A stretch of 64,000 nucleotides of DNA from Clostridiaceae bacterium (lineage in GTDB: Bacteria; Bacillota; Clostridia; Saccharofermentanales; DTU023): positions 1 to 64,000 of the forward strand of contig DUVN01000029.1 in NCBI GenBank assembly GCA_012841015.1, in the 5' to 3' direction. Under the pieces are notes generated by a model, which worked only from the letters and a program-made list of their open reading frames with translations, did no database searches and was not told where the DNA came from. This document shows positions 6,041 through 61,549 of the stretch, piece by piece (the stretch's first letter is position 1; every line of letters begins with the position of its first letter). The translations under genes and the position numbers were made by a program.

Positions 6041-6261
6041 TGGTCAATATTTACGCTTTGAGTAACAGTGTTTTACCTAAAGCGTTATTTTTGACCAGAT
6101 TCGCGCGATTTTCAGTGGTATCTGGTCAAAATTTCCACCTTGGGTAACGGTTTCTTTCCAAAAGTGTATTTTTTGTCCATTTTCGAGCCCTTTCCACTGG
6201 TTAGTGGTCAAAAAATACACCTTGGGTAATGGCTTCTTGCCTAAAACGTCATTTTTGACCA
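6041..6261 (-). repeat. Intergenic repeat array, locus 1: three 57-nt palindromic units with 25-nt linkers (82-nt period)
   Basis: Units at 6041-6097, 6123-6179, 6205-6261, each TGGTCAA...(G)TAA-loop-TT(A)CC...TTGACCA type. Inverted orientation relative to the other two loci, judged from linker sequences. Confidence 0.9.
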
Positions 6262-28345: not shown

Positions 28346-28554
28346 CTTTCCTCCGTACATCTGTTGGTGCGAGATAATAACCTACTAGAAGGCTATATGA
28401 AGCGTGCTTTCCTCTGTACGTCTGTTGGTGCGGGAAAGACGAGCACCTGTTTATTCGCGAGGTTGATCTTTCCTCCGTAGATCTGTTGTTGCGAGATGAT
28501 AACCTACTAGAAGGATATATGAAGAGTGCTTTCCTCTATACACCTGTTGTTCGT
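28346..28554. repeat. Four 26-nt direct repeats with exact 61-nt period (35-nt spacers)
   Basis: Repeats start at 28346, 28407, 28468, 28529 (CTTTCCTCYGTACRTCTGTTGGTGCG-like, degenerating to the right). Spacers 1 and 3 nearly identical, so the array is also a 122-nt duplication. Confidence 0.9.
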
Positions 28555-43635: not shown

Positions 43636-45069
43636 TCAATCCACCTCAGGGAGAAGACCGTCAACGAGCCGCCGCATGTCTTCGAAGTCTCCAAGATCTG
43701 GAACCCAGACCGAGGATGCGTCGATCAGTGTTTCAGGGTGTTGTGCCTGCCCCTTGAAGGTTGACGGGATCGTTCCGTCAAGTTGTCCGCGTACGCTTTG
43801 AGCTCGCAGGAGGCAGAAGGATTTTAGCGTGTCAACAGCAAGAAGGAAATCGTCGTGAGAGCAAAACTTTGTAGGGTCTCGCTTGACATAAGGCGAGATC
43901 ATATCTCTGATGGAGTCGACCTTTTCTTCGAAGCGACCGCTTTCCATGTACTTTATCAGGAAATCGTCGTAGAGATCGTGGTACCTCGCAACATATTCGC
44001 CGTTAAACATAAGCTGTACAAAGAGCGGCCGGCGAACCATCACCTCAAACGGAGCCGGCGTGTCGATCGGATAGTTGACAAAAAGCGTCGAATCGTTGAT
44101 AGGATCTGTCATGCCGAGCGCATAGGTTGCAAAGGCGAGGTTGTAGTCCCATGGGAGCATCGAAATTTTGCCGTCTTTTTCGTAAAGGAAATAGTTGTGT
44201 CCTGTTTTGCCAAGATAGCTGTCGAGATTGACGACAAATGTTTGGACAGTGAAATACCTGAGTAATGCCTCAATATCGAGTGCAGATTCTAAGTCTTCTC
44301 CTTCAGAAAGAATCTTGAGCGCTTTAATGAGTCTTGCCTTATCGGCGTCATTTACTTTAAAGACGGCATGGCGGAAGATATTGTCGTAGCGCCATAATTC
44401 ATCACCCGTGTAGATGAGGGCGATATCGTCATTCTGATCTGTTAACCGGAGATACTTCGGTTTGTAGAGTTCCCCGCGATTCATACCATAATTTCGACGG
44501 ATGAAGGCATCTTCAATTTCCTCGATCGCAACGAACAACCCCCAATCCCTCTCATTGACACGCACAAAGGCGTGGCTTGTAAGAGGTGCGGGGACTTTCA
44601 TCTCGCGCATCATTTCATACGTTATCGTATCTTTCATAAATGCGTTGTCTTGGAAAGAGGTGTTCAGTGAGAGCTTGTCAAGTCCAAAGTATGTCTGCCC
44701 TTTTTCAAAATGATCGAATTCAATCTTGAGGCTAAAGCGCTTGGAGCCGTACTTGTAGATCTGGTTGAGGGAATTGTTTCCCTTGACGCGGAGCCCGACA
44801 TTGGCGATTTCCTCGCCGTCGATGACAACTTTGACAGGGATATATTCTTTCGCATGTGGATTTTCTAGGATGCCTTGCCAATCTGATTCATCGGCTGTAA
44901 TATCGATTGAATGAACATAGCTCATGTCAAACAGGCGACTTGCATAACTAGGGGAGCCGTGATACGTTCTAAGGCCAAGCGATCCGGCATTCATGAACAC
45001 AACAATGAGAACGACCATGAGCAAGGTCGCTACGAAGCAAATCTTGTCGATGTATCGATGTTTGAGCAT
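43636..45069 (-). CDS. CotH kinase family protein
   Basis: VGLRVKGNNSLNQIYKYGSKRFSLKIEFDHF; GLDKLSLNTSFQDNAFMKDTITYEMMREM; YFLYEKDGKISMLPWDYNLAF; start at ATG with GGAGG. Confidence 0.92.
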   Translation of the reverse strand: MLKHRYIDKICFVATLLMVVLIVVFMNAGSLGLRTYHGSPSYASRLFDMSYVHSIDITADESDWQGILENPHAKEYIPVKVVIDGEEIANVGLRVKGNNSLNQIYKYGSKRFSLKIEFDHFEKGQTYFGLDKLSLNTSFQDNAFMKDTITYEMMREMKVPAPLTSHAFVRVNERDWGLFVAIEEIEDAFIRRNYGMNRGELYKPKYLRLTDQNDDIALIYTGDELWRYDNIFRHAVFKVNDADKARLIKALKILSEGEDLESALDIEALLRYFTVQTFVVNLDSYLGKTGHNYFLYEKDGKISMLPWDYNLAFATYALGMTDPINDSTLFVNYPIDTPAPFEVMVRRPLFVQLMFNGEYVARYHDLYDDFLIKYMESGRFEEKVDSIRDMISPYVKRDPTKFCSHDDFLLAVDTLKSFCLLRAQSVRGQLDGTIPSTFKGQAQHPETLIDASSVWVPDLGDFEDMRRLVDGLLPEVD

Positions 45070-45282
45070 GAATGCCTCCTTGCAATGTCGTTTTGATAAC
45101 GTGGCCTGTGGTTCCTGTACGATGCAAACCGTCCTGTTCCTGTCGCAATGCCTCCTAAGCATTTTAACGGTATTGTTTATGCTCAACCGGCTGTCGATAC
45201 CTTCTTAGCCGACGTCATCTCACAATCCTTCTCGTCGTTAAATATGTTGTCTGCTTTTTAAAGGAGGACTGTCAGTGGACGC

Positions 45283-45954
45283 TTAGCCGACGTAATCACC
45301 CTTGTAGCTAACAAGAACGACATCCTGAACGCCCTCGGTGTCGGCGATTTTGCTGAGAAAGGAAGTCTCGTTATCTTTTAGTCTAATTTCGTAGTGGAGT
45401 TCAATCTCTCCTTTACGGACACTTTTACTCTTGAGGATTAGTTTTTTGATGTTTGCCTCCAAGACGGCTTTTGTAGCAGCCTCAGCTTCTTCTGATTGGC
45501 AGCGCAGGACTAAAATAAAGGGGTTGTCGTGAGATTTCCAGCTGACAAAAATGACAAGGATCACGCCGATAAAAAGGCTCCCAAAGACGGCAAGAGGTAA
45601 CAGGCCGGCAGCAATGACAATGCCGACGGCAATGCTCCAGAACAAAAACGCAATATCGAGCGGCTCCTTAATGGCCGAGCGGAAACGAACGATAGACAGA
45701 GCGCCTACCATTCCCAACGAGAGAACGACATTGCTTGTGACGGCTAGAATGACGAGAGTTGCAATCATGGTAAGTCCGACGAGCGTTACGCCGAAACTCG
45801 ATGAGTACATTACACCTCGATACGTTAATTTGTAAATCCAAAAAATAAAAAGTCCAACAAAGAATGAGAACAGCATGGCAAGGGCCATGTCGAGGATCGA
45901 GATGCTCGTTACATTCTCGAGAAATTTTGATTTGAAGATGTCTCTGAAACTCAT
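45283..45954 (-). CDS. DUF4956 membrane protein
   Basis: TM segments; ...TSNVVLSLGMVGALSIVRFRSAIKEPLDIAFLFWSIAVGI typical of DUF4956; adjacency to VTC and CotH. Confidence 0.88.
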   Translation of the reverse strand: MSFRDIFKSKFLENVTSISILDMALAMLFSFFVGLFIFWIYKLTYRGVMYSSSFGVTLVGLTMIATLVILAVTSNVVLSLGMVGALSIVRFRSAIKEPLDIAFLFWSIAVGIVIAAGLLPLAVFGSLFIGVILVIFVSWKSHDNPFILVLRCQSEEAEAATKAVLEANIKKLILKSKSVRKGEIELHYEIRLKDNETSFLSKIADTEGVQDVVLVSYKGDYVG

Positions 45955-46011
45955 GTGTCTTTTCCTCTTTCACTTTATTGTTGACCTCGTTGAGAGGTAT
46001 TGTATTTCTTG

Positions 46012-46686
46012 TTAGTCGTACTTACGGCTATGTGCGTATTTTGAAAAGGCGCCACTTCGCCTTGGTCCAATCTGAACGGCGTCTGCAATAAACTCAGGGA
46101 GAAACTGATCGTATTTTACCTCGAGGACGGCAAAAGCCTCGTTTGTCGGTAGCTGTAGTGGATCAATCGCAAAGAAGTCAATGTTCTTTCCACTTGTTCT
46201 GATGTCGCGATCAAGTGTGATACGAACGTTCCCTGCAGGGAATACGAATGGTTCACGGTAATACTCCACCATGACGCAGGGACGTAAGAGGAGGCTTTTT
46301 AACTTGAAGTAGAATTCTTGGAGTAAAGGGTTTTCGCTTTCAAGAAGAAAGGAGTATTCTCCGTCGAGAATCGCGCGGACCTCTTTTTCCATTAAGCGAG
46401 CTGTTCGCTTGCGACTTAACCCACGGCGTTTACTCTTTTTTTCCAATCGAATCCATGAAAAATCTTGGTTGTAACAGCGAATGCGAAACTTCTCGCGATG
46501 GTTGACACCACTGATTTTTTCTGTCAAAGCTCTATCAAACGGATCATCGAAGTAGAGGCTTCTGACTAGGTATTCGCCGCTCGGACTGGCATGGCGGTCG
46601 TGAGGCAGAATCTTTCGAAGTCTATGGCTGAGTAGCTGATGGTCGGCAAAGTTGATCTCGTGTTTCAGTTCATGCCGAAGTATCAT
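46012..46686 (-). CDS. VTC-domain polyphosphate polymerase
   Basis: RHELKHEINFADHQLLSHRLRKIL; YLVRSLYFDDPFDRALTEKISGVNHREKFRIRCY; RLEKKSKRRGLSRK; AVLEVKYDQFLPEF. Confidence 0.92.
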   Translation of the reverse strand: MILRHELKHEINFADHQLLSHRLRKILPHDRHASPSGEYLVRSLYFDDPFDRALTEKISGVNHREKFRIRCYNQDFSWIRLEKKSKRRGLSRKRTARLMEKEVRAILDGEYSFLLESENPLLQEFYFKLKSLLLRPCVMVEYYREPFVFPAGNVRITLDRDIRTSGKNIDFFAIDPLQLPTNEAFAVLEVKYDQFLPEFIADAVQIGPRRSGAFSKYAHSRKYD

Positions 46687-46910
46687 GGAAAATCACCTCG
46701 TATTGTTCGTTCTTGATGTAGAGGATTTTTCCTCTTTTCCGTGTCAGTTTGATGTTGGAACTTTCATCCTAGTGATGGAAGTAAGATCGGGTGTTGTCAG
46801 TTTGCGTTTGCTCTAATCGTTCGCTGGGGTTTGTCTGTAGTTTGATTAAGGATCCTGTCCCGTTTTCGGTATTAAATAAGATTATACAGATGATTTTCGG
46901 TAGACAATAC

Positions 46911-46957
46911 ATCGGCTTTGCGCCTAGTGCCATCGAGGATGGGGACGCAAAGCCGAT
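46911..46957 (-). terminator. Hairpin downstream of the Asp/Ser-repeat lipoprotein
   Basis: ATCGGCTTTGCG ... CGCAAAGCCGAT, 12-bp perfect stem. Confidence 0.65.
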
Positions 46958-47012
46958 ACTAACTGGAGGGTGAGAGGCTGTGGTTGGTACGACTTAATGC
47001 TGCTCGTTGACC

Positions 47013-48080
47013 TTAGTCGTCGTAATCACTATCATCGAAGTCGCTGTCGTCATTCGTCGGCTTTGTTGTCCTGCGTGTCGTTGGCTTCTTGTAGTCGCTG
47101 TCGTCGAAGTCGCTGTCGTCTTTTGTCGGCTTTGTCGTCCTGCGTGTCGTCGGCTTCTTGTAGTCACTGTCGTCATGATCGCTGTCGTCGAAGTCGCTGT
47201 CGTCTTTCGTCGGCTTTGTCGTTCTACGCGTCGTCGGCTTCTTGTAATCACTGTCGTCATGGTCGCTGTCGTCGAAATCACTGTCGTCTTGCGTCGGTCT
47301 TGCTGGCTTCTTGTAATCACTGTCATCATGATCGTTGCTATCGGCGTAATCGGTATCATCATCATAGTCGCTCTCGTCCTGGTCGCCGCGCTCATACTTC
47401 AGAACTTTTCCGCTTACTGCATCGATCTCGTACTCATATTCAACGCCATTGGCTTTGAACTCTATGTCGTAGTATACGACGTCGTCGTCTTTTTCGAGTT
47501 TAACTTTATCAAAAGTGGCGCTGGAAGCTGATACTTTTGCGTGATTGAGAGCGATCTCTTTGGCTCGTTCAACCGTAATGAATTCTCCAGTCGGTCCCTG
47601 ATAATCTGAGTCATCATAGTCCGTGAAATCGATACCTAGGACCTTAGAATCCAAGTTCATCGCTTCGAGCGTCGTGCGAACTTCTTTGGCTAATAGCTTA
47701 TCGAATGCATCTTCAGGGAAAACGGATCCTTTTACGAATTCAATCGTTATATCGCGTTCGTTCCCGTCATCAGATACGAAAAATCCTGCATCGTGAATTG
47801 CTTTTACAAGCTCTTTGACTGTGGCTCGCACGTCCTCGCCCTTGAAATCTCTGATATTTTCGATCACGACTTTTGCATCGTCATTTTCCGCCTTAATGTC
47901 TGTAACGAGGCCTTCGCTATCATAATGGACAGCTATTTCCGGATTGACACGCAACAGGACGATGCCTGTGCCTTCCTTCAACTCTGCTGCGCTCTGCCCT
48001 TTAGCACAGCCAAGAACGGCAGTGACAAGGAACAAAACGGAGAACATCAGGGTGATCATTTTCATTTTGTGTTTTTTCAT
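47013..48080 (-). CDS. Lipoprotein with RsgI-like/PepSY-like domains and C-terminal Asp/Ser/Lys tandem repeats
   Basis: Lipobox TAVLGCAKG; GIVLLRVNPEIAVHYDSEGLVTDI; FITVERAKEIALNHA..YYDIEFKANGVEYEYEIDAVSGKVL (PepSY); tail repeats DDSDFDDSDHDDSDYKKPTTRRTTKPTK. Confidence 0.85.
   Translation of the reverse strand: MKKHKMKMITLMFSVLFLVTAVLGCAKGQSAAELKEGTGIVLLRVNPEIAVHYDSEGLVTDIKAENDDAKVVIENIRDFKGEDVRATVKELVKAIHDAGFFVSDDGNERDITIEFVKGSVFPEDAFDKLLAKEVRTTLEAMNLDSKVLGIDFTDYDDSDYQGPTGEFITVERAKEIALNHAKVSASSATFDKVKLEKDDDVVYYDIEFKANGVEYEYEIDAVSGKVLKYERGDQDESDYDDDTDYADSNDHDDSDYKKPARPTQDDSDFDDSDHDDSDYKKPTTRRTTKPTKDDSDFDDSDHDDSDYKKPTTRRTTKPTKDDSDFDDSDYKKPTTRRTTKPTNDDSDFDDSDYDD
47020..47320 (-). repeat. In-frame tandem repeats (about 84-nt / 28-aa units, plus shortened copies) encoding DDSDFDDSDHDDSDYKKPTTRRTTKPTK
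   Basis: Two full 28-aa copies plus shortened or variant copies, visible in protein and DNA. Confidence 0.9.
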
Positions 48081-48639
48081 GTTCTTTCTCCTCATATTGT
48101 AATTTTTGAAATGGCAATGGTTTATTGCGCTGAACACTAATAGATTGCGGACGTCATTTCGGAAAAGCGGGGTCGAAGAACAGAGAATTGAGAAATTATT
48201 TCGAAAATGATCTGAATTGTCTCATTAAGGCCTTAAATTCCCCCGAAATGCGTGGCCTCCTTGTTCTCTCGAATCAGATTCTAGCTGTGGAGTGAGTGAT
48301 TTGCTCCCATGCAGGCAGTAACTCGATTATGAGCAAAATCTACTCTAAAGTGAAAACTCGTTTTGAGACAGTTCGATTATTTTTGCGATATCACTCATAA
48401 TAATATTACACCCAAGAAATGGGAGGCTATTCTGTGGATGTCCCACGAGTGATAGAATTAATGTAAGTATGGGTAGTCCGCTCGAGTACGTTGCGGAATA
48501 TCCCATCAAGATGCGTCAGTGCAAAGTGGTAGCCTCTGCCAAAAACTTTTCGCTTCTTGCGATGAAACATAGGTGGATACGGGACCATTGCCGAGAGGAT
48601 CACTAGATCGGCCCGGTGCGTGATTAGGGGAGTCTTTTT

Positions 48640-49422: not shown

Positions 49423-50250
49423 ATGATTTTGAAAGCTTACGCCGTCCCGCATCCCCCGATTATCTTGCCGGAGGTGGGCCGCGGTGAAGAGCGAAAGATT
49501 GAGGCGACAACGTTATCGTTTCAGAGAATGGCGCGCGAAATTGAATCGCTGGCGCCTGATACGATCGTTCTCTCGTCTCCCCATGCCCCGGCATATGCCG
49601 ACGCGTTTTATCTTGCCGGTGGCGATAGAGGGTACGGTGACCTGAAGTCGTTCGGTATTCCTCGTGTCCGTGAAGAAGTTTTGTTCGACCGGGAATTCTC
49701 GGAGTGTCTCGCGGCTGCGCTTGCTGACCGGCGAATTGATACAACGGGAACTCTGCAAGGTCGCAGTGGCCTTGATCACGGAACGTTGATCCCGCTTCGC
49801 TTTATCCATCAACGCTATACATACTTTAAGCTCGTTCTGATCGGGATCTCGTGGCTGGGAAGTGACGTACACCGCGATGTCGGACGCGCGATCACGCGCG
49901 TTGCCAAAGAACTTGGACGCCGTGTTGTCTTTATTGCTAGTGGTGACTTGTCCCACGTCTTGAAAAAGGATGGCCCGTACGGCTACCGCCCGGAGGGGCC
50001 GATCTTTGATGCAGAGATCGCGCGTATATTTCGCGAGGGCGATCTGGAGGCGCTTTTCCACTTTGAGCCTTCGATTTTGCGAAAGGCAGCAGAGTGTGGC
50101 CTTCGGTCTTTCCAGATGATGACCGGAGTGCTTGACGGCGCCCCATACGAGTCGGAGCTCTACTCATACGAGGGAACGTTCGGCGTCGGTTACGCTGTGG
50201 CTGGCGTCACACCAGTCGATGTCAAGGCAACTCATCACAAGGAGCCATAA
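49423..50250 (+). CDS. amrB: AmmeMemoRadiSam system protein B / Memo-like (class III extradiol dioxygenase fold)
   Basis: YAVPHPPIILPEVGRGEERKIEAT; VLSSPHAPAYADAF; GLDHGTLIPLRFI; FIASGDLSHVLKKDGPYGY. Confidence 0.92.
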   Translation: MILKAYAVPHPPIILPEVGRGEERKIEATTLSFQRMAREIESLAPDTIVLSSPHAPAYADAFYLAGGDRGYGDLKSFGIPRVREEVLFDREFSECLAAALADRRIDTTGTLQGRSGLDHGTLIPLRFIHQRYTYFKLVLIGISWLGSDVHRDVGRAITRVAKELGRRVVFIASGDLSHVLKKDGPYGYRPEGPIFDAEIARIFREGDLEALFHFEPSILRKAAECGLRSFQMMTGVLDGAPYESELYSYEGTFGVGYAVAGVTPVDVKATHHKEP

Positions 50251-50326
50251 GTGTGATCGAAGGTGTGCCCCTTCTGAGCAGGCTACGGTTAGTTTTTGTT
50301 TGTTTTGGGGAACGGAGGATGCCAGA

Positions 50327-50517
50327 ATGATTCGACAGTACGATCGAGTTCAACTTAAAAGTGGTCATAAGGCTTTCATCGTAGAAATCCTTGAAGAAGA
50401 TGTTGCATATATGGCAGACATCGATCGTGATGGCGATACTTATACCGATTTGTAAAAAGGAGCGACATTGAGATGGTGTGCTTACGCGGGCAACTGTATT
50501 GGACGAGGACGCAATGA
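50327..50517 (+). pseudogene. Small ORF with probable frameshift: MIRQYDRVQLKSGHKAFIVEILEEDVAYMADIDRDGDTYTD/FVKRSDIEMVCLRGQLYWTRTQ
   Basis: RBS GGAGGA, ATG 50327, zero-frame stop 50453-50455. The -1 frame from 50449 continues as a plausible tail, FVKRSDIEMVCL..., to the stop at 50515-50517. Confidence 0.5.
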
Positions 50518-50660
50518 GCTCATGATACGTAATGGGATGATGGCCGACTAAATGAACCTAAGTTGTTAGAAGGACTAGCGGCTTCAAAAGTGACTGTTTT
50601 CTCAAAGAAGAAGGCTGAAAGCAGGTTATGGCTGAGAGCAAAATAGGGAGGACAATCGTT

Positions 50661-51203
50661 ATGACGTTTCACGATAAGAATACGACACCTCGGAGCAATC
50701 CCTTTGTTGCGCTCGCGAGAGCGACGATTGATCGGTATATAAGGGAAAGGCAAGTGATAGATGTTCCGGCTGGATTGCCAGAGGAACTGACGAGGAGGCG
50801 CGCTGGAGCCTTTGTTACCATTTATAAACACGGAAACCTACGCGGCTGTATCGGTACGATTACGCCGACACGTCCAACCCTTGCTGATGAGATTATTAGC
50901 AACGCGATTGCGGCTGCGACGAAGGATCCGAGGTTTCCCTCTATTAGGAAAGATGAGCTCTCCGAGCTCGAGATCAGCGTTGATGTCTTAGGGGAAGCAG
51001 AGGAAGTCGATTCGTTCGATGTGCTAGACCCCTTCCGTTACGGAGTCATCGTGTCACGCGGTTTTCGTCGCGGATTGCTGCTCCCGAATCTTGACGGTAT
51101 CGATACGGTAGAGGAACAAGTTTCCATCGCGCTTCGCAAGGCAGGTATCTTTGGCGGCGACTACAAGCTCGAGCGATTTGAAGTGACGCGCCATACGGAA
51201 TGA
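50661..51203 (+). CDS. amrA: AmmeMemoRadiSam system protein A (AMMECR1 domain)
   Basis: GAFVTIYKHGNLRGCIGTITPTRPTLADEIISNAIAAATKDPRFPSI; ELEISVDVL; GVIVSRGFRRGLLLPNLDGIDTVEEQV. Confidence 0.93.
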   Translation: MTFHDKNTTPRSNPFVALARATIDRYIRERQVIDVPAGLPEELTRRRAGAFVTIYKHGNLRGCIGTITPTRPTLADEIISNAIAAATKDPRFPSIRKDELSELEISVDVLGEAEEVDSFDVLDPFRYGVIVSRGFRRGLLLPNLDGIDTVEEQVSIALRKAGIFGGDYKLERFEVTRHTE

Positions 51204-51248
51204 TCGAACGAGACTCACGATATCTTCAAAATTTGGATAGGAGAGGCA

Positions 51249-52103
51249 ATGGCGATGACAGGCGAAACGAATATGAAAGGCGCAGCGCGTTGTGGTGTCT
51301 GTTGGAGGCACTGTCTTATTCCTGAAGGAGGGCTCGGCTACTGTCGTGCGCGGACGACGAACAATGGTGTCGTCCTCGCGGAAAACTATGGGAAGCTAAC
51401 GAGTCTTGCGCTCGACCCGATCGAGAAGAAACCGTTGTCGCGTTTTTATCCCGGGTCTTATATCCTCTCCGCCGGCAGTTATGGGTGTAACATGTCATGC
51501 CCCTTCTGCCAGAATTTTGAGATCGCGCACGATGCAAGAGGTAAGCGTCGCAGCGCAAACGTCTCGCCTGAGGAGCTCGTTGAGCGGGCTCTTTTTCTTC
51601 GTTACCGAGGCAATGTGGGGATTGCTTTTACGTACAATGAACCTCTCGTAGGATACGAGTTTGTAAGAGATACAGCGGTGTTGGCGCGCCTTGAAGGGCT
51701 TGAGACAGTCGTCGTGACTAATGGCCAGATAGCAGCAGAACCGCTCGACGAACTGCTGCCGCTGATCACTGCCTGGAATATCGACCTCAAGTCTTTCAAC
51801 AACGACGCCTATAAGAAATTGGGAGGGCGCCTTGACGTGACACTCCGGACGATTGAGCGTGCTGCAGAAACGGCACATGTCGAGGTGACTACACTTGTCG
51901 TTCCCGGGTTGTCAGATAACGAGGAAGAAATGGAACGCGAGGCAGCCTACCTCGCATCCGTCAATCGAGACATCGTTTTGCATCTTTCGCGTTATTTCCC
52001 CTGTTGGCAATACGATGTGCCGGCGACGCCGCGCGAGACATTGTATAGACTCTGCGATATTGCAAAAAAATATTTGCCTTACGTCGTATTGGGCAACATC
52101 TGA
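51249..52103 (+). CDS. amrS: AmmeMemoRadiSam system radical SAM enzyme
   Basis: CNMSCPFCQNFEIAH; GIAFTYNEPLVGYEFV; VVTNGQIAAEPLDELLPLITAWNIDLKSF. Confidence 0.94.
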   Translation: MAMTGETNMKGAARCGVCWRHCLIPEGGLGYCRARTTNNGVVLAENYGKLTSLALDPIEKKPLSRFYPGSYILSAGSYGCNMSCPFCQNFEIAHDARGKRRSANVSPEELVERALFLRYRGNVGIAFTYNEPLVGYEFVRDTAVLARLEGLETVVVTNGQIAAEPLDELLPLITAWNIDLKSFNNDAYKKLGGRLDVTLRTIERAAETAHVEVTTLVVPGLSDNEEEMEREAAYLASVNRDIVLHLSRYFPCWQYDVPATPRETLYRLCDIAKKYLPYVVLGNI

Positions 52104-61246: not shown

Positions 61247-61549
61247 TGGTCAAATTTTCCATTTTGAGTAGCAGATCCTTACCCTAGGTGTAAAAAATGA
61301 CCACAATCCTCTATAAAACGCACGAATCTGGTCAAAAATGCCGCTTTGGGCAAGACACTGCTACTCAAGGTGTAAATTTTGTCCGTATTCGGCTTGAAAA
61401 CGCACGAATCTGGTCAAAAATGACGCTTTAGGCAAGCCCACGTTACCCAAGGTGTAATTATTGTCCACAATCAGCTTAAAAACACTGGGGGCTGGTCAAA
61501 AATGACGCTTTCGGTAAAAACTTGCTGTTCAAAGCGAAAAAAATGACCA
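61247..61549 (+). repeat. Intergenic repeat array, locus 3: four 57-nt palindromic units, 82-nt period
   Basis: Units at 61247-61303, 61329-61385, 61411-61467, 61493-61549; linkers CAATCCTCTATAAAACGCACGAATC / TATTCGGCTTGAAAACGCACGAATC / CAATCAGCTTAAAAACACTGGGGGC. Confidence 0.95.

Follow-up and report, generated by a model that had tools for sequence, protein, structure and literature searches.

We analysed a stretch of 64,000 nucleotides, hereafter the window (contig DUVN01000029.1 of GenBank assembly GCA_012841015.1, positions 1 to 64,000), from the metagenome-assembled genome (MAG) of a Clostridiaceae bacterium, which is 1.79 Mb in size and 89.8% complete and which has Clostridiaceae MAGs, among them isolate AS22ysBPME_67, as its closest named relatives. 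It carries an operon for a lipoprotein with an RsgI_M domain and an acidic [ST]-x-Y repeat tail, a VTC-domain protein, a DUF4956 membrane protein and a CotH kinase, which on balance we take to be the effector half of a system under SigI/RsgI control that modifies proteins outside the cell, with CotH phosphorylating the tails. The argument draws on the genes and their domains, a conserved operon, a motif shared between tailed proteins, the joint loss of motif and enzymes, a distinct CotH clade and a SigI-like promoter. In the proposed mechanism, the membrane-anchored CotH would phosphorylate Ser or Thr of the [ST]-x-Y repeats outside the cell, on substrates of two kinds: the lipoprotein, which would be the main one and is present in the window, and, in related genomes, the anti-sigma factor RsgI. 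Because RsgI carries the substrate motif of the kinase, the simplest reading is feedback by modification, in which the modification state of RsgI would report kinase or donor capacity and tune the release of SigI. VTC would make polyphosphate in the cytosol and DUF4956 may help it across the membrane, where it would likely donate the phosphoryl group or serve as a reserve for the donor, this donor role being the least certain element.

To describe the motif, we examined the tails of 70 RsgI_M proteins, taken from those genomes of an order sample (98 genomes) that have a short CotH, from G094 and from named loci. Ser or Thr stands two residues before 82% of the 874 Tyr in these tails, compared with a mean of 18% and a maximum of 21.5% over 200 shuffles, and 69 of the 70 tails hold at least two sites. 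Of the 754 Tyr that lie in low-complexity context, 90% have Ser or Thr at -2, and 63% of 786 Ser/Thr have Tyr at +2. The linkers between sites are very diverse (APTAAPTK, GPNNDGV, KKPTTRRTTK), and the codons at the motif Ser/Thr are mixed (ACN 350, TCN 207, AGY 160), with TCN and AGY Ser codons occurring together in 35 of the 70 proteins, a mixture that speaks for selection of the hydroxyl residue rather than for plain repeat expansion. Exact DNA matches to patterns of the D-D-[ST]-D-Y-D-D type were found in 13 of the 15 CotH genomes of the window's family and in one of its 18 CotH-less genomes (G028), where the match encodes Cys. A shorter pattern gave clustered matches in RsgI_M proteins, one PepSY-repeat protein in G047 excepted, and single matches at about control level; genome-wide, motif arrays are almost confined to the tailed RsgI_M proteins. 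The G047 protein (L321:893-2404, on G047:C73) is secreted, comes from a genome with CotH, has a FDDTDYDEDDDTDYDDDDD linker in its interior and is a possible further substrate.

The motif is lost where the enzymes are absent. From the order sample we recovered 92 RsgI_M proteins, 42 of them with acidic C-termini. All 28 acidic-tailed proteins from genomes with a sigI-type CotH have at least two [ST]-x-Y sites, against 4 of 14 elsewhere (Fisher p 7e-7, relatedness ignored). Two of these four are the pair from G094, in which the contig stops shortly past VTC, and the other two are incidental PepSY-repeat matches in G077 and G092. A near-ideal natural knock-out is provided by G050, which shares 85% identity with G053 in the head of RsgI and 76% in that of the lipoprotein: VTC, DUF4956 and CotH are missing after the G050 lipoprotein, where a different gene follows, and its acidic tails contain zero Tyr, compared with 13 and 14 sites in the two tails of G053. 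Three further genomes without CotH (G071, G022, G026) also have Asp-rich tails with at most one site. Judged from these sequences, the motif depends on the enzymes and tracks the sigI-type CotH. A link between the motif and CotH of any kind was rejected, as long CotHs, most of which have a C-terminal membrane helix, sit without RsgI_M proteins, and as G011, which has a long CotH only, carries poly-Asp tails with 0-1 sites.

This pattern bears on an alternative that we regard as possible though rather doubtful, namely that the tails are unmodified, serving as wall-spanning disordered sensors or Ca-binding stalks, while CotH, VTC and DUF4956 build or decorate a distinct polymer at the cell surface, which the tails bind or sense. 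The C-terminal regions of RsgI proteins are indeed known sensors, as with the disordered tail of Bacillus subtilis RsgI, some tails (TDYGPNNDGVTDYND) resemble Ca-binding repeats by impression, and genes for CotH, a polyphosphate polymerase and DUF4956 occur in Pel polysaccharide loci (PMC7112168). However, roles in bulk or charge do not predict that, without the enzymes, acidic tails persist yet their S/T-x-Y is gone, the motif is constant over very different linkers and codons, and the window operon has no evident polysaccharide genes next to it; in particular, no pel genes lie beside it among the open reading frames (ORFs) at 40-52 kb, the span searched, with Pfam assignments for seven.

Modification of the tails by a dedicated set of neighbours also fits the recurrence of the operon, since the same genes occur together in dozens of genomes and their grouping is thus beyond chance. 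In the order sample, VTC was found in 59 genomes, DUF4956 in 58, RsgI_M in 48 and CotH in 39. Of the genomes with CotH, 37 also have VTC, and the two without it, G075 and G078, have a completeness of 65% and 59%. Within the window's family, RsgI_M lipoproteins are encoded immediately 5' of VTC-DUF4956-CotH, often after rsgI and sigI, and the gene order in relatives is sigI-rsgI-lipoprotein-VTC-DUF4956-CotH. Among the best 80 of 583 named VTC loci, DUF4956 is present in 79, CotH in 72 and RsgI_M in 23; in all 23 of the latter, CotH is present and one or more RsgI_M proteins have at least seven [ST]-x-Y sites in the last 200 residues, and 19 of these loci include sigI. The operon appears in records of Oscillospiraceae, Lachnospiraceae, Erysipelotrichia and Tissierellia; its carriers are gut and digester bacteria, some of them named strains (Sellimonas caecigallum, Flavonifractor sp. 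An82, Pseudoflavonifractor phocaeensis). A preliminary description of the window had asked whether such loci elsewhere carry lipoproteins with Asp/Ser/Lys repeats; acidic Ser/Thr tails are found on the RsgI_M protein or proteins beside every sigI-type CotH whose upstream sequence is present. Three genomes with the sigI-type operon (G035, G020, G080) have an additional locus with VTC, DUF4956 and a long CotH (L062, L070, L076), at which no RsgI_M gene or [ST]-x-Y protein was seen.

The window CotH aligns to 5jd9 in a sequence search (E 6.5e-25), and its structure model matches Bacillus cereus CotH (5jd9/5jda, 4e-13). Its Asp283 (44221-44223) and Asp308 (44146-44148), invariant in 15 aligned rows, match the spore-CotH catalytic pair, the correspondence to D228/D251 of B. 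subtilis CotH (PMC7821199) being mapped by residue count on the 5jd9 alignment. With the family profile PF08757, the kinase fold and both Asp residues in place, the protein is a predicted kinase that may act on Ser of a repeat protein, and a hydrophobic N-terminal helix (residues 5-26) implies that its kinase domain should lie outside the cell. In a tree made by a quick method from 97 CotH rows (E < 1e-60 to a purpose-built profile, at least 360 residues, spore-type, divergent and truncated CotHs omitted), all 30 RsgI_M-linked CotHs fall in one clade of 34 rows (SH-like approximate likelihood ratio test, SH-aLRT, 100). Of the remaining four rows, three come from contigs cut just upstream of VTC and one, from G344, proved to be linked after all: sigI, rsgI, lipoprotein and CotH lie together there and VTC-DUF4956 is on a separate contig, which suggests that the tail always has CotH next to it and that VTC-DUF4956 can function from another place in the genome. 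SigI control of an exported CotH is also seen in Clostridium thermocellum, where cseP, encoding a cellulosomal CotH-dockerin protein, is among the SigI6 promoter targets (PMC4711584).

The chemistry of the transfer could in principle differ. Atypical kinase folds do other transfers, and it is conceivable, if unlikely, that CotH moves a non-phosphate group, such as adenosine monophosphate or a polyphosphate chain supplied by VTC-DUF4956, to tail Ser, Thr or Tyr; transfer of a chain is made plausible by the adjacent VTC, and VTC may be encoded in trans whereas CotH remains beside the tail. The nearest characterised relative, the spore CotH, is however a Ser kinase that uses adenosine triphosphate (ATP) (PMC7821199), in keeping with phosphorylation.

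The lipoprotein contains RsgI_M and PepSY domains that the preliminary description overlooked. It has both the RsgI_M domain and its Asn-Pro pair, presumably the autocleavage site, and the pair is present in 68 of 69 RsgI_M proteins checked, the one miss being truncated by a contig start. In place of the cytosolic sigma-binding N-terminus and transmembrane helix of RsgI, it has a signal peptide and lipobox; the partner RsgI proteins of relatives do possess the sigma-binding N-terminal domain and the helix. Its tail was described beforehand as repetitive, acidic and Ser-bearing, and this is borne out by two full copies of DDSDFDDSDHDDSDYKKPTTRRTTKPTK in succession together with shorter copies, and by a Tandem Repeats Finder array at 47095-47297 whose score of 343 is far over threshold; the whole protein has 14 [DNE][ST][DNG][YFH] sites.

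The periplasmic domains of RsgI proteins are reported to autocleave, and their C-terminal regions to act as sensors. Published SigI promoters have ACCCCC...CGAA in Bacillales and a CGWA -10 element in C. thermocellum. The pattern ACCCC-N19-CG[TAC]A, which was fixed after hits had been seen so that the count is partly fitted, precedes 18 of the 40 operon-first genes tested, the window's included, and is found in 0.2% of shuffles. With the spacer set to 13-18 bases instead of the actual 19, none of the 40 matched. The sigI-rsgI partners with their same-tailed anti-sigma factor, the SigI-like promoter and the Tyr of the motif had likewise been overlooked.

As for the phosphate source, the window VTC has the PF09359 profile and aligns to yeast Vtc4 (3g3q/5iiq) over conserved basic Arg/Lys residues of the tunnel, which we take to include the catalytic residues, about 160 N-terminal positions being aligned; it is a predicted polyphosphate maker. 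The DUF4956 model (predicted local distance difference test, pLDDT, 77) has as its best Foldseek match the C-terminal domain of MgtC (2lqj, E 1.8e-3), and no sequence match was found among solved structures. ATP is scarce outside the cell. The source of ATP for the spore CotH has been called unanswered (PMC7821199). In a phylum sample of 348 genomes, CotH occurs in 52 (51 over cut-off), VTC in 59 and both in 46. Six CotH genomes lack VTC: four (G384, G225, G211, G415) hold only CotHs of 355-410 residues with no hydrophobic N-terminus, which their sequences mark as spore-type, the CotH match of a fifth (G257) is sub-threshold, and the sixth (G165) is considered below. A hydrophobic CotH N-terminus was found in 31 of the 34 VTC genomes whose CotH was read (exceptions G235, G405, G406), the regular-expression screen having skipped 11 genomes, three of which were read separately. 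The co-occurrence of CotH and VTC fits a polyphosphate donor and is not proof of one, since the genes are usually in one operon and would co-occur anyway. A full circuit powered by polyphosphate instead of ATP, in which VTC would make the chain, DUF4956 export it, CotH phosphorylate the tails, and the tailed RsgI gauge unmet phosphorylation and switch the operon on, is offered as a tentative proposal, well short of probable.

The preliminary description proposed that the lipoprotein is a substrate of the neighbouring enzymes and likened its tail to the acidic Ser/Lys (PASK) tracts modified by polyphosphate. The first part survives, as the protein is a likely CotH substrate given the Ser/Thr tails beside sigI-type CotHs and their loss without the enzymes. 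The second fails because Lys is not conserved, being absent from 25 of the 70 tails, and only 63 of the 717 motif sites have a Lys four or fewer residues away. We thus consider it very improbable that the tail undergoes PASK-type Lys polyphosphorylation or binds polyphosphate non-covalently, despite the Lys and Arg beside acidic Ser blocks in the window linkers and the adjacent VTC gene; the published modification, according to the available text, targets Lys with no need of Ser (PMC7008358), whereas here it is S/T-x-Y that is conserved.

Several points weigh against a SigI/RsgI-controlled CotH that phosphorylates the tails. Tyr belongs to the motif no less strictly than Ser/Thr, so that, judged by sequence, the target could be Tyr. 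The counts of joint loss lack phylogenetic independence. RsgI tails are weaker than lipoprotein tails, with one [ST]-x-Y each in the RsgI of L144 and of G344. In the window MAG, at its 89.8% completeness, one query found no SigI homologue, no RsgI_M protein besides the lipoprotein is seen, and the window promoter reads CGCA, not the published CGWA. The exporter role of DUF4956 is suggested by topology, in a model of middling quality. Finally, 13 of the 59 VTC genomes of the phylum sample are without CotH, which indicates that polyphosphate has other uses, and the VTC-less G165 has an exported divergent CotH-like lipoprotein, which counters a strict need for VTC.

Parts of this system have been described before, and our comparisons draw on the available portions of the papers cited. 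The Bacillus spore CotH with CotB/CotG (PMC7821199; 5jd9/5jda) shares the kinase fold, the Asp pair and a dedicated repetitive Ser-bearing substrate encoded nearby. In the present operon, by contrast, the kinase has a membrane anchor and is linked to VTC-DUF4956 and SigI, and its proposed substrates are the acidic [ST]-x-Y tails that a lipoprotein and an anti-sigma factor carry. Gram-positive Pel loci (PMC7112168) have the identical three-gene set, although the available text mentions no RsgI_M lipoprotein or tail. The NELoc-2 locus of Clostridium perfringens (PMC2879425, PMC11677781), compared by description only, unites a sigma factor, an anti-sigma-domain/cell-wall protein, VTC, a gene annotated as tubulin/FtsZ, which by position would be DUF4956, and CotH, but neither the tail motif nor a substrate role is described in the portions available. 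C. thermocellum and B. subtilis have SigI/RsgI systems with which the operon, in the form that it takes in relatives, shares the sigI-rsgI pair, a presumably autocleaving periplasmic domain, a C-terminal extension of the sensory kind and a promoter resembling the ACCCC/CGWA type; here, in contrast, the presumed sensor is an acidic [ST]-x-Y tail, which is also on a second, lipid-anchored RsgI_M protein beside the kinase. The three-gene set and the sigma/anti-sigma/VTC/CotH locus are thus already known; in the open-licence PubMed Central literature we found no account of an operon with an [ST]-x-Y-tailed lipoprotein and anti-sigma factor.

The features of the operon are collected in Table 1. A check of ORFs and translations confirmed the four codirectional genes, all on the minus strand, at the coordinates first assigned to them; a longer frame of CotH with a TTG start reaches 45186, and NCBIfam profiles gave zero matches over cut-off.

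Table 1 Features of the operon in the window
Feature	Position	Strand	Size or support
Lipoprotein: signal peptide, lipobox LGC (Cys25), RsgI_M, PepSY, acidic [ST]-x-[YFH] repeat tail	47013..48080	-	355 residues
RsgI_M (SEAL-like) domain, residues 41-151	47628..47960	-	Pfam PF23750, E 1.6e-12
Asn46-Pro47, presumed autocleavage site in RsgI_M	47940-47945	-	
PepSY domain, residues 168-230	47391..47579	-	Pfam PF03413, E 1.4e-10
Acidic repeat tail, residues 232-355: DDSD[FYH] units between KKPTTRRTTKPTK linkers; proposed CotH substrate	47016..47387	-	
VTC-domain protein, predicted cytosolic polyphosphate polymerase	46012..46686	-	PF09359, E 7e-39
DUF4956 membrane protein: five predicted helices and C-terminal ACT-like domain	45283..45954	-	PF16316, E 1e-12
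CotH kinase, membrane-anchored, sigI-linked clade	43636..45069	-	PF08757, E 2e-55
SigI-like promoter ACCCC-N19-CGCA, 96 bases 5' of lipoprotein start	48146..48176	-	

At 49423-52103 of the window lie three genes resembling what we take to be the AmmeMemoRadiSam B/A/radical-SAM set. Elsewhere, two tandem arrays of 82-bp period, at 6076-6261 and 61280-61511, are about 55 kb apart and their units look mutually reverse-complementary (ends CCTAAAGCG.. and ..CGCTTTAGG); a further array at 28346-28549 has a 61-bp period, 3.3 copies and 61% matches.

How a bacterial kinase facing outward is supplied with phosphate is an open question that this operon addresses, and an external kinase fed by polyphosphate is possibly a new principle. 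As the operon unites a kinase, a candidate maker and a candidate exporter of the donor, a substrate with a recognisable motif and a sigma/anti-sigma reporter, in some cases in named strains, the question becomes testable. From our analysis we further propose that DUF4956 may serve in the export of polyphosphate, that bacterial VTC may in this setting serve in its synthesis, and that the lipid-anchored RsgI_M proteins may be substrates of the kinase.

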